Of a DNA stretch of 49,428 bases, positions 1 through 49,428 are shown one piece after another. Position numbers and translations under genes: made by a program. Each line of letters begins with the position of its first letter. The first letter of the stretch is position 1. The stretch is from the NCBI GenBank assembly GCA_009694365.1, contig SHVE01000013.1:1-49428 (forward strand), written 5' to 3'. The stretch comes from Thermoleophilia bacterium. GTDB lineage: Bacteria; Actinomycetota; Thermoleophilia; Miltoncostaeales; Miltoncostaeaceae. The notes beneath the pieces are model-generated. The model saw only the letters and a program-made list of their open reading frames with translations. It made no database searches and had not been told where the DNA came from.

Positions 1-108
1 GTTGTTACCGCCGTTGTTACCGCCGTTGTTACCGCCGTTGTTACCGCCGTTGTTACCGCCGTTGTTACCGCCGTTGTTACCGCCGTTGTTACCGCCGTTG
101 TTACCGCC
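1..108. repeat. 12-bp perfect tandem repeat, 9 copies, open at window edge
   Basis: Nine identical copies of GTTGTTACCGCC run from position 1 to 108 with no mismatch, and the array is cut by the window edge. On the minus strand each unit encodes Gly-Gly-Asn-Asn in the frame of the signal-peptide protein. The unit length is a multiple of three, so gain or loss of copies would change protein length without a frameshift. The identity of the copies suggests recent expansion or homogenisation. Confidence 0.97.
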
Positions 109-267
109 GCTGGGCCTGCAACCTGGCACGACGCGGTCGGGGACGCAGACCGGAGCCTGTGGGGGCTTTGGGCCCGTCTGGGCTGTCCCCATTCCCGCAC
201 CAAGTCCTACGGCTATGACGACGGCGGAACTCGCCGTCGCTGCGATGAGTTTGGCTATGCGGTGCAT
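1..267 (-). CDS. Secreted Gly-Asn (GGNN) repeat protein, C-terminus beyond window
   Basis: The reading frame opens with ATG at 267 and is still open at the window edge, giving 89 residues. A GGAGG Shine-Dalgarno lies 9 nt before the ATG. Residues 1-29 look like a Sec signal peptide: a basic start (MHRIAK), a hydrophobic core of Ala, Val, Ile and Gly, and a probable cleavage after GTA. A short Pro-rich segment with two cysteines (C41, C50) follows, and residues 54-89 are nine perfect GGNN units that continue past the edge. The protein is therefore probably exported and ends in, or contains, a flexible hydrophilic Gly/Asn region. I do not recognise a family. The cysteines could form a disulfide or an anchor. 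The signal peptide, the Shine-Dalgarno and the promoter at 312-341 make this frame far more likely than the overlapping Leu-Pro frame on the plus strand. Confidence 0.75.
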   Translation of the reverse strand, partial: MHRIAKLIAATASSAVVIAVGLGAGMGTAQTGPKPPQAPVCVPDRVVPGCRPSGGNNGGNNGGNNGGNNGGNNGGNNGGNNGGNNGGNN

Positions 268-311
268 CTGGACAGACCTCCACTGGCTTGGATCACGCAC
301 GTACTTATCTC

Positions 312-341
312 ACGGTACGCCTAAACGCGTTTGAATGTCAA
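312..341 (-). promoter_or_regulatory. Near-consensus sigma70-type promoter of the GGNN protein gene
   Basis: On the minus strand a perfect -35 TTGACA (341-336) is followed after 18 nt by a -10 TACCGT (317-312). Transcription would begin near 305, giving a leader of about 38 nt that contains the GGAGG of the gene starting at 267. The 18-nt spacer contains the perfect 10-bp palindrome AAACGCGTTT (323-332), a possible operator. This is the only full TTGACA-type promoter I noticed in the window. Confidence 0.7.
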
Positions 342-357
342 CCCACTCGGGTACGGG

Positions 358-723
358 CTACTGCGAGAGGTCGTCACGCAGGCGAACAGCCTCACGCAGA
401 TACGAGTGTGCCACCGGGCGGTCCGCCGGCATGTACGCGTGGATCATCAGTCGCACGCACATCGGCAGGGATCCCGCGACGGAGATCTCGCTGGCACAGA
501 GCAGGGGCACCGTTACGAGCCCCATGTCCCGGGCGGCCACGGCCGGGAACTGCGCGGTCAGGTCAGCGGTCGCGGTGAAGATGATCGACACCATGTCGTC
601 GGGGGATAGGGCGTTGCGGGCGATCACGTCATCGAGCAACTCACGCGTGGCGGTGATGATCTCGTCGGCGGAGTCGTTCGGGACGCTGGTCGCCCCGCGA
701 ATGGCACGGACACGCTCGCTCAC
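358..723 (-). CDS. aroH: Monofunctional chorismate mutase, AroH class
   Basis: Converts chorismate to prephenate, the branch step to Phe and Tyr. The 121-residue length and sequence match the Bacillus-type trimeric AroH family. Residues matching its active site are in register: R9, R65, E79 (in the CASE segment), R91 and Y108. The start is the GTG at 723, whose GTGA overlaps the rluB stop by 4 nt; a longer upstream reading is only an rluB shadow. It is the last gene of a scpA-scpB-rluB-aroH minus-strand operon. The prephenate dehydrogenase gene (5023-6153) lies in the divergent operon, so the two halves of the pathway flank one promoter region. Confidence 0.9.
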   Translation of the reverse strand: MSERVRAIRGATSVPNDSADEIITATRELLDDVIARNALSPDDMVSIIFTATADLTAQFPAVAARDMGLVTVPLLCASEISVAGSLPMCVRLMIHAYMPADRPVAHSYLREAVRLRDDLSQ

Positions 724-15361: not shown

Positions 15362-17299
15362 ATGAGATTGTCCACCGCTCGCCGTCGTACGCGTCGTCAG
15401 ATTATTCCGGCGGTCGTGTTGGCCGTAGTGGGTGTTGCGAGCGGCGCGGTGCTCGTCTCGGGGTGCGGGGATACGGCATCGGCCGGTTCCGCCCCGGAGT
15501 CGATCGCCGGGTACATCCCCGCGGAGAGCGCCGTCTATTTCCAGGTGTCCACCGACACCGACGGGGCACAGTGGACACAGATCAAACAGCTCGGGGCACT
15601 GTTCCCGGGGTACGCGGCAATGAGTGCGGACTTCGAGGCGGCGTTAGCCCGTGAGGGCGTGGACTGGGACACGGACCTCAAGCCCCTCCTCGGCGAGGCC
15701 GTCGCCCTCGCGATCACCGATGTCCCGGGTGGCGCATCGGGCGCCGCCGGGACGGAAACGGCGACGACAGGTGCCGCTGGGACGAGCGCGATGCCGACGA
15801 GCCCGGACGGGATGAGCACCGACGGGATGACCACCGACGGGATGACCACCGACGGGATGACCACCGACGGGATGACCACGACGACGCTCCCTGACCCGAC
15901 GACCACCTACGGCACGAGCACCGACGGAACGGGCATCGGGATGGCGATGGAACCGTATCCGGGGCGAACGAACCCGACGGGCGTCGACGGCACGAGCACC
16001 GACGGGACGAGCACGACGACGCCTGGTGCCACCTCGAAGAGCCCGCTGACGATAGGCACGAAGCACGCGATGCTGGCCGTTCTGCAGATCGCTCCGGACG
16101 CGATGGCAGACGTGACGGCACTCATCACCGATGACCCGTCGGGACTCACGAAGACCGGGGAGTACCAGGGCGCAACCATGTATTCCGATGCGGCCGTCGA
16201 CATGAGCGTGGCGGTGGCGGAGGAGAGCCTCATCATCGGGTCGTCAGAGGAGGTGGTACGGCGTTCCCTCGATGCCCATGCATCCGGGGGGGAGGCCGTG
16301 TTGTCTGGCGTCGTCCGCTTCAACGATGCGTTGGCCCTCCTCCCCAAGGATGTCTTCGCGATGGCGTACGTCAACCTCGATGTCCTCGGTCTGAGTGCGA
16401 CGGACGCCATCCCGCAGGTGGGCTCTCTTGTGGGCGACCAGGTGACCGGTGCCGCTGCGATGTCGGTGACCGCTGAGCCGGGTGGACTCCGGATGAAGGC
16501 CGTGGTGGTGGATGGCCCGCCCATCTTTGACCAGACGTCATTTGCACCGACCCTCACCCGCCAAGCACCGGCCGACTGCGTTGTCTACATCGGCTTCAAC
16601 CGCCTCGCCGACACCGTCTCCGCAGCTCTTGCGGCCGCCTCCGAGAGCGGAACCCCCGATACGAAGAAGCAGATCGACGCCCTCACCACGCAACTTCCCA
16701 GTCTCCTCGGCGTGAATGGAGATGACCTCCGCAACCTGACCGGAGGTGAACATGCGGTGGTGGTGACTCGGGAGTCGCCCACTCCCGGTGTATCGCTGGC
16801 CCTGCGAACAGCCGATGGGGCACACGCAACGAAGAGTCTCACCGCTCTGTCGAAAAGCCTGCCTGCGGTCTTCGCGCAGTTCGGTGGCAGCGACACGGTG
16901 ATTGGCGACTGGACCACCGTGGACCTCAAGGGCACCACAGGTCGCCAACTGTCCCTCGGGACGTGGGGCGGCATCGTCTGGGGTGTGCGCGGCAACCTCG
17001 CCGTTGTGGGCTCCCGCGCATCGGGCGTGGCCAGCGTGCTGGCCCCGCGTGCGGTCGGGACGTCGCTCGCCGCCGCGCCGGCGTTCGGAGATGCTACCCG
17101 CGGGATGCCGTCACAGGTGAGTGGTCTCGCGTGGGTGAACATGCGCGAGGTCAGTCGGCTGTTGGCGGCGAATGGCGCCTTCGATGGCAAGGGGGGCGCA
17201 CGCATGCGTGCCAACCTCGCTCCGATCACCTCCGTCGCGGCGTGGACGACGTCGGGGACGAACCCGACGCTCGAGGTGTTCGTGGGGATGGCCCCCTAA
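15362..17299 (+). CDS. DUF3352 family lipoprotein with Thr-Asp-Gly-Met repeat linker
   Basis: A 645-residue exported protein. The N-terminus is Arg-rich, followed by a hydrophobic stretch and the lipobox LVSGC with the lipid-modified Cys at 35. The next segment (AGYIPAESAVYFQVSTD, then GAQWTQIKQLGALFPG) matches the start of the actinobacterial DUF3352 family, whose function is unknown. Residues about 120-225 are a low-complexity Thr/Gly/Asp/Ser linker containing five DGM(S/T)T units. A long globular region with repeated LGV, NRLAD and VGMAP-type strands follows to the end. It is flanked by gpsA and metK and probably forms its own transcription unit. Confidence 0.8.
   Translation: MRLSTARRRTRRQIIPAVVLAVVGVASGAVLVSGCGDTASAGSAPESIAGYIPAESAVYFQVSTDTDGAQWTQIKQLGALFPGYAAMSADFEAALAREGVDWDTDLKPLLGEAVALAITDVPGGASGAAGTETATTGAAGTSAMPTSPDGMSTDGMTTDGMTTDGMTTDGMTTTTLPDPTTTYGTSTDGTGIGMAMEPYPGRTNPTGVDGTSTDGTSTTTPGATSKSPLTIGTKHAMLAVLQIAPDAMADVTALITDDPSGLTKTGEYQGATMYSDAAVDMSVAVAEESLIIGSSEEVVRRSLDAHASGGEAVLSGVVRFNDALALLPKDVFAMAYVNLDVLGLSATDAIPQVGSLVGDQVTGAAAMSVTAEPGGLRMKAVVVDGPPIFDQTSFAPTLTRQAPADCVVYIGFNRLADTVSAALAAASESGTPDTKKQIDALTTQLPSLLGVNGDDLRNLTGGEHAVVVTRESPTPGVSLALRTADGAHATKSLTALSKSLPAVFAQFGGSDTVIGDWTTVDLKGTTGRQLSLGTWGGIVWGVRGNLAVVGSRASGVASVLAPRAVGTSLAAAPAFGDATRGMPSQVSGLAWVNMREVSRLLAANGAFDGKGGARMRANLAPITSVAAWTTSGTNPTLEVFVGMAP
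15806..15880 (+). repeat. 15-bp tandem repeat (5 copies) inside the DUF3352 gene
   Basis: Five consecutive 15-nt units of consensus GACGGGATGACCACC. The first has AGC in place of ACC at its fourth codon and the last ends in G; the others are identical. They encode Asp-Gly-Met-Thr-Thr. Related but degenerate GACGGCACGAGCACC-type units recur near 15910-16015, extending the linker. Confidence 0.9.
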
Positions 17300-48358: not shown

Positions 48359-49428
48359 GTGGTCGCCCGCATCGTCAGCCCGGCCCTCGTCGGGCTCGAC
48401 ACCGCCACCGTGGAGGTGGAGGTGGACCTCCGGCCCGGGCTGCCCGGGTTCCGAATCGTGGGCCTCCCCGACACCGCCGTGCAGGAGGCGCGCGAACGGG
48501 TACGCAGCGGTCTGGTAAACCAAGCCTTCGACCTGCCCCCCATTCACATCGTCGCCAATCTCGCTCCGGCCGACCTGAGAAAGTCGGGTCCGCAGTACGA
48601 CCTGCCCATCGCCCTTGCGATCCTCGTGGGGTCGGGGCAGGTACGCCCGGGAGTGCTGACGGGCACGGGGGCGGTGGGCGAACTCGCCCTCGATGGAAGC
48701 CTGAGGCCCGTCCCGGGGGTCCTCGTTATGGCCGAGCATGCGGCGCGCCGGGGGTGGCGGCAGTTCCTCGTGCCCGAGGCTAATGCCGAAGAGGCGTCCC
48801 TCGTTCCGGGAATCACCGTGCTCGGGGTGCGCAGCCTGCGGCATGCGGTGGACGTGGTGGAGCGAACCGCGATGCCTGTGGTTGTCGCCGGGGACGCGGC
48901 AACCTTGCTTCAGGGCGCGGAGCCGGCGGGTCTGGGCGACCTCACGGACGTACGGGGGCAGGGGGACGCCCGTCGCGCGCTCGAGATCTCGGCCGCCGGA
49001 GCCCACTCGGTGCTGCTGATCGGACCACCGGGTGGTGGAAAGACCATGCTTGCGCGGCGCCTACCGGGCATCATGCCGCCGCTCGGGGTGGGCGAGGCCA
49101 TCGAGATCACCAGAGTGCATTCGGTGGCCGGGATTCTGCCCCCGGGGAGCTCCCTTGTCACCCGGCGTCCCTTCCGGGCTCCGCATCACACCATCTCGGC
49201 TCCCGGACTCGTGGGAGGTGGACGGGTACCGCGCCCCGGGGAGGTGAGTCTCGCGCATCTGGGTGTGCTGTTCCTCGACGAGGTCTGCATGTTCCCGCCG
49301 GCGGCCCTCGATGCGCTGCGTCAGCCGATGGAGGAGGGTCTCATCGACATCACGCGTGCCTTCGGAAGCGCACGCTTCCCGGCCGAACCGGTGTTGGTGT
49401 GCGCCGGCAATCCGTGTCCGTGCGGCTA
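48359..49428 (+). CDS. comM: ComM/YifB family Mg-chelatase-like AAA+ protein, C-terminus beyond window
   Basis: The first 356 residues of a ComM/YifB protein, an AAA+ hexameric helicase that promotes branch migration during natural transformation in some species. The N-terminal domain has ARIVSPALVGLDTATVEVEVDL, GFRIVGLPDTAVQEARERVR and NLAPADLRKSGPQYDLPIAL; the ATPase domain has LLIGPPGGGKTMLARRLPGI (Walker A), FRAPHHTISAPGLVGGG and LFLDEV (Walker B), and the sequence stops inside NPCPCGY. GTG at 48359 is chosen because it precedes the conserved start directly; no Shine-Dalgarno or clear promoter is visible. Confidence 0.92.
   Translation, partial: MVARIVSPALVGLDTATVEVEVDLRPGLPGFRIVGLPDTAVQEARERVRSGLVNQAFDLPPIHIVANLAPADLRKSGPQYDLPIALAILVGSGQVRPGVLTGTGAVGELALDGSLRPVPGVLVMAEHAARRGWRQFLVPEANAEEASLVPGITVLGVRSLRHAVDVVERTAMPVVVAGDAATLLQGAEPAGLGDLTDVRGQGDARRALEISAAGAHSVLLIGPPGGGKTMLARRLPGIMPPLGVGEAIEITRVHSVAGILPPGSSLVTRRPFRAPHHTISAPGLVGGGRVPRPGEVSLAHLGVLFLDEVCMFPPAALDALRQPMEEGLIDITRAFGSARFPAEPVLVCAGNPCPCG

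Follow-up and report, generated by a model that had tools for sequence, protein, structure and literature searches.

Bacterial surface proteins with low-complexity repeat stalks are exported proteins in which a variable tandem-repeat spacer lies between fixed modules. The copper and silver carriers CusF and SilF are also exported; CusF, which binds metal through His and Met, is not known to have Cys modules or a spacer of this kind. DUF5666 (PF18914) is presumably a small, beta-rich, OB-like domain of exported proteins. These described systems were compared with the 5′ part of a putatively secreted repeat protein gene that lies at the left end of the window, the whole 49,428-nt stretch of Thermoleophilia bacterium DNA analysed here. 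The window is a complete contig (G000:C13) of a 1.50-Mb assembly in 19 contigs, and its position 1 is a contig end.

At this end, a frame on the minus strand opens with an ATG at 267 and meets no stop before the contig end at position 1 (1-267; 89 residues), its product being MHRIAKLIAATASSAVVIAVGLGAGMGTAQTGPKPPQAPVCVPDRVVPGCRPS(GGNN)9. By hydropathy, residues 1 to about 30 (MHRIAKLIAATASSAVVIAVGLGAGMGTAQ; 178-267, minus strand) form a predicted signal peptide, in which the mean Kyte-Doolittle value over 15 residues peaks at 2.11 at residue 8, comparable to the peaks of 1.8-3.1 in the relatives that bear an N-terminus; by our reading, cleavage could take place near GTA/Q. Between the signal peptide and the spacer sits a Cys module, CVPDRVVPGC (C-x8-C, residues 41-50, with C41 and C50; 118-147, minus strand). 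The spacer starts with nine perfect GGNN units, encoded by the 12-nt unit GGCGGTAACAAC (1-108, minus strand), and as the contig ends inside the array, nine units are a lower limit. A first-pass annotation had described an edge-cut frame with a signal peptide, a Cys/Pro segment and nine perfect GGNN units preceded by a GGAGG ribosome site, and each of these was confirmed in the minus-strand frame; the GGAGG (277-281, minus strand) begins at 281, 9 nt ahead of the ATG.

The array was located by TRF at 1-109 (period 12, 9.1 copies, 100% match), with the top score of three rows returned for the window at a minimum score of 60. The longest exact run of period 12 measured 109 nt in the window versus no more than 22 nt in any of 20 mononucleotide shuffles. 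One further low-complexity repeat protein is encoded in the window; it is a DUF3352 protein whose N-terminus is signal-like (frame 15362-17299, plus strand), and in it a 15-nt tandem array at 15806-15883 specifies TTDGM units.

A TTGACA/TACCGT promoter had also been proposed for the gene. The pair is indeed present, with TTGACA at 341-336 and TACCGT at 317-312, separated by 18 nt (312-341, minus strand; 9/12 matches), and TTGACA-N16-18-TANNNT occurs only once in the 49 kb when both strands are scanned, but it is weaker than was claimed, as the -10 box TACCGT matches at three of six positions. A stricter promoter scan of 1-2800 returned no candidate, and none of the nine related upstream regions compared shares the TTGACA. 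Expression of the gene and secretion of its product are both presumed from sequence.

Related genomes were read at the region following aroH, with the neighbouring genes as anchor. In the window, aroH (chorismate mutase; 361-723, minus strand; Pfam CM_1, E 4.5e-42) is the upstream neighbour of the frame. At 10 of the 15 aroH loci of the genus, the source genome included, the next gene on the same strand encodes a protein with a signal peptide and a Gly-rich spacer (source genome, G003, G004, G005, G007, G008, G010, G015, G017 and G018). A C-terminal domain shared by the family, here called the head, was also found in seven of these ten genomes, in G017 on a second contig; in the source genome, G004 and G010 the contig stops before it. 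No such gene was present at four of the 15 loci (G001, G006, G011 and G012), and the head was nowhere in these four genomes; in G019 the contig ends at aroH. Around members outside the genus, aroH was not found in any of eight stretches of 3.5-5.5 kb, and it is therefore probably a chance neighbour rather than a partner. The first-pass annotation, which had proposed a secreted protein of no known family and suggested a search for homologues, was supported on this point, as regards a probably secreted protein with start signals of its own: relatives of the same kind were found downstream of aroH, and the part in the window had no Pfam match at E<=1.

The architecture, which it had described as unfamiliar, turned out to be common to 13 full-length proteins from three genera (G003, G005, G007, G008, G013, G015 and G018 in this genus; G100 in g48; G138, G174, G182, G186 and G224 in g69). 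In these proteins, the signal peptide is followed by one or two Cys modules and a Gly-rich spacer, after which come two more Cys modules and, at the C-terminus, the head of about 130 residues. The members outside the genus follow the same layout, some with additional Cys modules. The number of mature Cys (after residue 28) was even in all 13 proteins, ranging from 8 to 14: in the genus, 10 in G008 and 8 in each of G003, G005, G007, G013, G015 and G018; outside it, 8 in G174, 10 in G100 and G138, 12 in G224 and 14 in G182 and G186. When the Cys were taken two by two along the sequence, the 50 pairs that precede the head included 38 of the form C-x11-C, typically CxxGxxPTxxxPC. The first pair varied from C-x8-C to C-x15-C in the other members read, and genus members with a first pair had C-x11 to C-x15, in contrast to the C-x8-C of the window, which among the members read was found elsewhere only in G138 and G182. 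In G004, no Cys precedes the spacer. In G100 (L118, 2464-4437, minus strand), the family gene is located about 300 nt after a same-strand frame with GH18 and CBM_2 domains.

The window frame itself has the aroH-adjacent place on the same strand, an N-terminal signal peptide as judged by hydrophobicity, a Cys pair and a Gly-rich spacer. When frames of 40 aa or more from the window and 36 contig ends were scored with a profile of the family N-terminus, it was the best of 2,245 real frames (17.2 bits, E 0.0013), the next one reaching 13.0. None of 2000 fully shuffled sequences reached this score, whereas 205 of 2000 did so when the mature part was shuffled and the signal peptide left intact; therefore, the signal peptide and composition carry much of the N-terminal match. 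The similarity of the N-terminus to the family is thus modest, and the assignment of the gene is carried by synteny and layout.

A search of 61 genomes with the N-terminal part of the window protein gave mostly weak matches, most of which are in our judgement probably low-complexity chance, while L006 was a true relative. The best three matches outside the window (L003, L004 and L005) were rejected, as they fit neither the Cys-module pattern nor the head. They represent a different Gly/Asn-rich protein found in the genus, whose C-terminal domain looks thioredoxin/DsbA-like by eye.

In the source genome, a profile search gave no match to the head, and trpS was not found either. This gene scored over the cut-off in 16 of 20 genomes of the genus and in all 14 controls. 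Besides the source genome, which is 98.14% complete, three genomes of the genus are without it, and their completeness is 64-82%. Wherever the head was found in the genus (ten genomes), trpS shares its contig and follows at a distance of 1.3-1.7 kb from the gene. As the head and the neighbouring trpS are both missing, the remainder of the gene is therefore probably in an assembly gap, that is, missing from the assembly and not necessarily from the organism. A parallel search of the source genome with another neighbour, which we take to be ArfB-like from its GGQ motif, gave a best E of 0.03, with no positive control. A gene that is truncated in the source species, or has a different C-terminus, so that only a secreted repeat is left, would also agree with a genome without the C-terminal domain, and gain or loss does occur, since the gene is missing at four of the 15 aroH loci. 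We consider this unlikely, as the frame, the signal peptide and the start signals are intact and the absence of trpS as well points to an assembly gap.

Within the source genome, the start of C13 was the sole site of a two-unit repeat pattern when up to three mismatches were allowed, and the left end of the window had no exact overlap of 21-400 nt to any of the other 36 contig ends. Frames at the end of contig C3 are 71-77% identical to G018 frames that lie 7-9 kb past the gene, in an orientation that continues the window, and one of them is gcvT by our reading; the last 1.1 kb of C3 had no match in that region of G018. Judging from the conserved gene order, the simplest account would be that the start of C13 faces the end of C3 across a gap of several kb. 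In G017, the GGGQPQQ repeat forms an end of two contigs, of which one carries the N-terminus and the other the head; by analogy, this split within the repeat may be the situation of the window. Contigs end within the spacer in three genomes of the genus, namely the source genome, G010 and G017.

Other contig ends of the source assembly were also repetitive or overlapping. Contigs C11 and C15 (L097 and L100) end in one 9-nt tandem array (CGGGTTCGG), with an exact overlap of 93 nt, which reads PPN, GFG or RRV depending on the frame. At the right end of the window, 49280-49428 overlaps the end of C16 by exactly 149 nt, inside what we read as the frame of a ComM-like ATPase, and therefore C16 in reverse continues the window.

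The spacer unit differed between species, being GGNN in the window and GGTAP, GGQQGGPPP, GQGGQP or GGGQPQQ in others. At the DNA level, the unit was 12 nt in the window (100% match), 15 nt in G007 (82%), 18 nt in G008 (98%), 21 nt in G017 (100%) and 27 nt in G003 (96%) and G004 (98%), whereas the spacer repeats of G005, G010, G013, G015 and G018 were weak or short. The units are thus 96-100% alike in five of the six strong arrays, G007 being at 82%, which fits recent tandem expansion. The unit lengths of the strong arrays are divisible by three. The relatives hold other Gly-rich units at this place and the sequence after it is conserved, because of which the function probably does not reside in the repeat. 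The rival view that the GGNN repeat is itself the working part, as a matrix, adhesive or ice/water-binding structure, would agree with the long and perfect array and with the similar GGGNNQ spacer of G100, which belongs to another family of the class. Nevertheless, such a role is decidedly improbable, given that relatives of the same genus carry different units, or a weakly repetitive Gly-rich stretch, with the rest of the protein kept, and that the likeness of the units in five of the six strong arrays fits recent expansion. For ice or water binding in particular no support emerged, the Pfam search of the window part at E<=1 being empty.

The head was invariant at 18 of 136 columns across 16 sequences, both Cys being among the invariant residues and no His or Met. 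A profile built from six heads matched 10 of the 20 genomes of the genus, none of 17 genomes from other genera of the family and, in a sample of 249 genomes of the class, 18 that belong to three genera (10 in this genus, one in g48 and seven in g69). With a profile from 16 heads, three genomes were matched in a sample of 396 from the phylum, namely G003, G018 and G100, all of them Thermoleophilia. Searches of Pfam, NCBIfam and PHROGs gave no convincing match (best E 0.069), and neither did the PDB sequences (best E 0.53). The head was not found in a plasmid search with one head as query or in a search of viral contigs, and a literature search on the lineage and protein type surfaced no relevant publication, which does not exclude that one exists. 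DUF5666 was rejected as an identity for the head, since its model matched none of the 20 genus genomes (2 of 42 in the family) and none of six heads; a profile comparison between the two was empty, a weak test with only two members on one side.

The best of five AlphaFold2 models of the head, obtained from six sequences, had a pLDDT of 83.4 and a pTM of 0.78 (pLDDT 74.0 to 32.6 in the others), and its predicted fold is an OB-like barrel of strands and helices. A full-length model had a mean pLDDT of 40.5, head included, and was uninformative on the arrangement of the parts. Foldseek gave no match to the head model at E<=0.001, and many of its best rows were OB folds. With VIA-align, CusF came top (Z 7.2, rmsd 2.7, 77 residues), with the OB domains of PriB, a tRNA synthetase and SSB within 1, values of Z below 8 being common for unrelated folds and perhaps signifying just a shared arrangement. 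This leading place of CusF would suit a head acting as a periplasm-type metal carrier, with additional metal sites in the Cys modules, but the nearness of the other OB folds and the 16 heads without an invariant His or Met make such a role very doubtful. That the window frame is an artefact, arising from misassembly at the contig end or from a frame left open by chance, is scarcely credible: the contig does end at a repeat with no exact overlap of 21-400 nt to the other contig ends, but a protein of the same kind and position occurs in nine other genomes, and signal peptide, RBS and paired Cys all share one frame.

The frame with its repeat, the synteny, the layout seen in relatives and the missing neighbours are direct observations. 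The protein is most likely an exported, disulfide-stabilised modular one, with the repeat as a flexible spacer and a C-terminal domain that binds something. The signal peptide would direct it through the Sec system, and the two-Cys modules, mostly with 11 residues between the Cys, would probably close into small disulfide loops. The Gly-rich tandem repeat, GGNN here, would act as a hydrophilic and flexible spacer that changes rapidly in both sequence and length. The domain of about 130 residues at the C-terminus, an OB-like barrel with one Cys pair, would be the probable binding part, acting at or outside the cell surface, and the source species presumably has it as well, the window breaking off inside the spacer. 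That the window gene belongs to this family is highly probable, whereas the mechanism of spacer plus binding head is put forward tentatively; taken jointly and loosely, the 5′ part of an exported modular protein gene working in this way is an explanation that we hold with moderate confidence. A more speculative and rather unlikely extension is that of a fast-evolving stalk, with differing Gly-rich repeats placed at one site between conserved Cys modules, in which length and chemistry would change with the frame preserved, perhaps because phages or grazers exert selection at the cell surface.

The family is new, if of an ordinary kind, and gives a definition to proteins that would otherwise be left as hypothetical. 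Its most eye-catching part, the repeat, is also the least conserved one. As contigs end inside the spacer, copies of the family can be anticipated to turn up as contig-terminal fragments. Should the spacer vary within populations, the family would give access to surface variation in an actinobacterial lineage that has been little studied.

Compared to the described systems, the head may resemble CusF and SilF in being a small OB barrel, with CusF as its best structural alignment at a Z of 7.2, a value also common for unrelated folds. It differs from CusF in its lack of invariant His and Met, and no CusF was among the PDB sequences at E<=10. The family shares with repeat-stalk surface proteins a variable tandem-repeat spacer between fixed modules, but no sortase motif or lipobox was seen by eye in the relatives of the genus, and past residue 40 no segment looks membrane-like (mean hydropathy over 18 residues reaching 1.11 at the highest). 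The Thermoleophilia family defined here is the closest of all: the window, in which the N-terminal part alone is seen, differs from it in a GGNN unit of its own and in a C-x8-C shorter than that of the genus members read, but has the same signal peptide, Cys pair, Gly-rich spacer and place after aroH in the genus.
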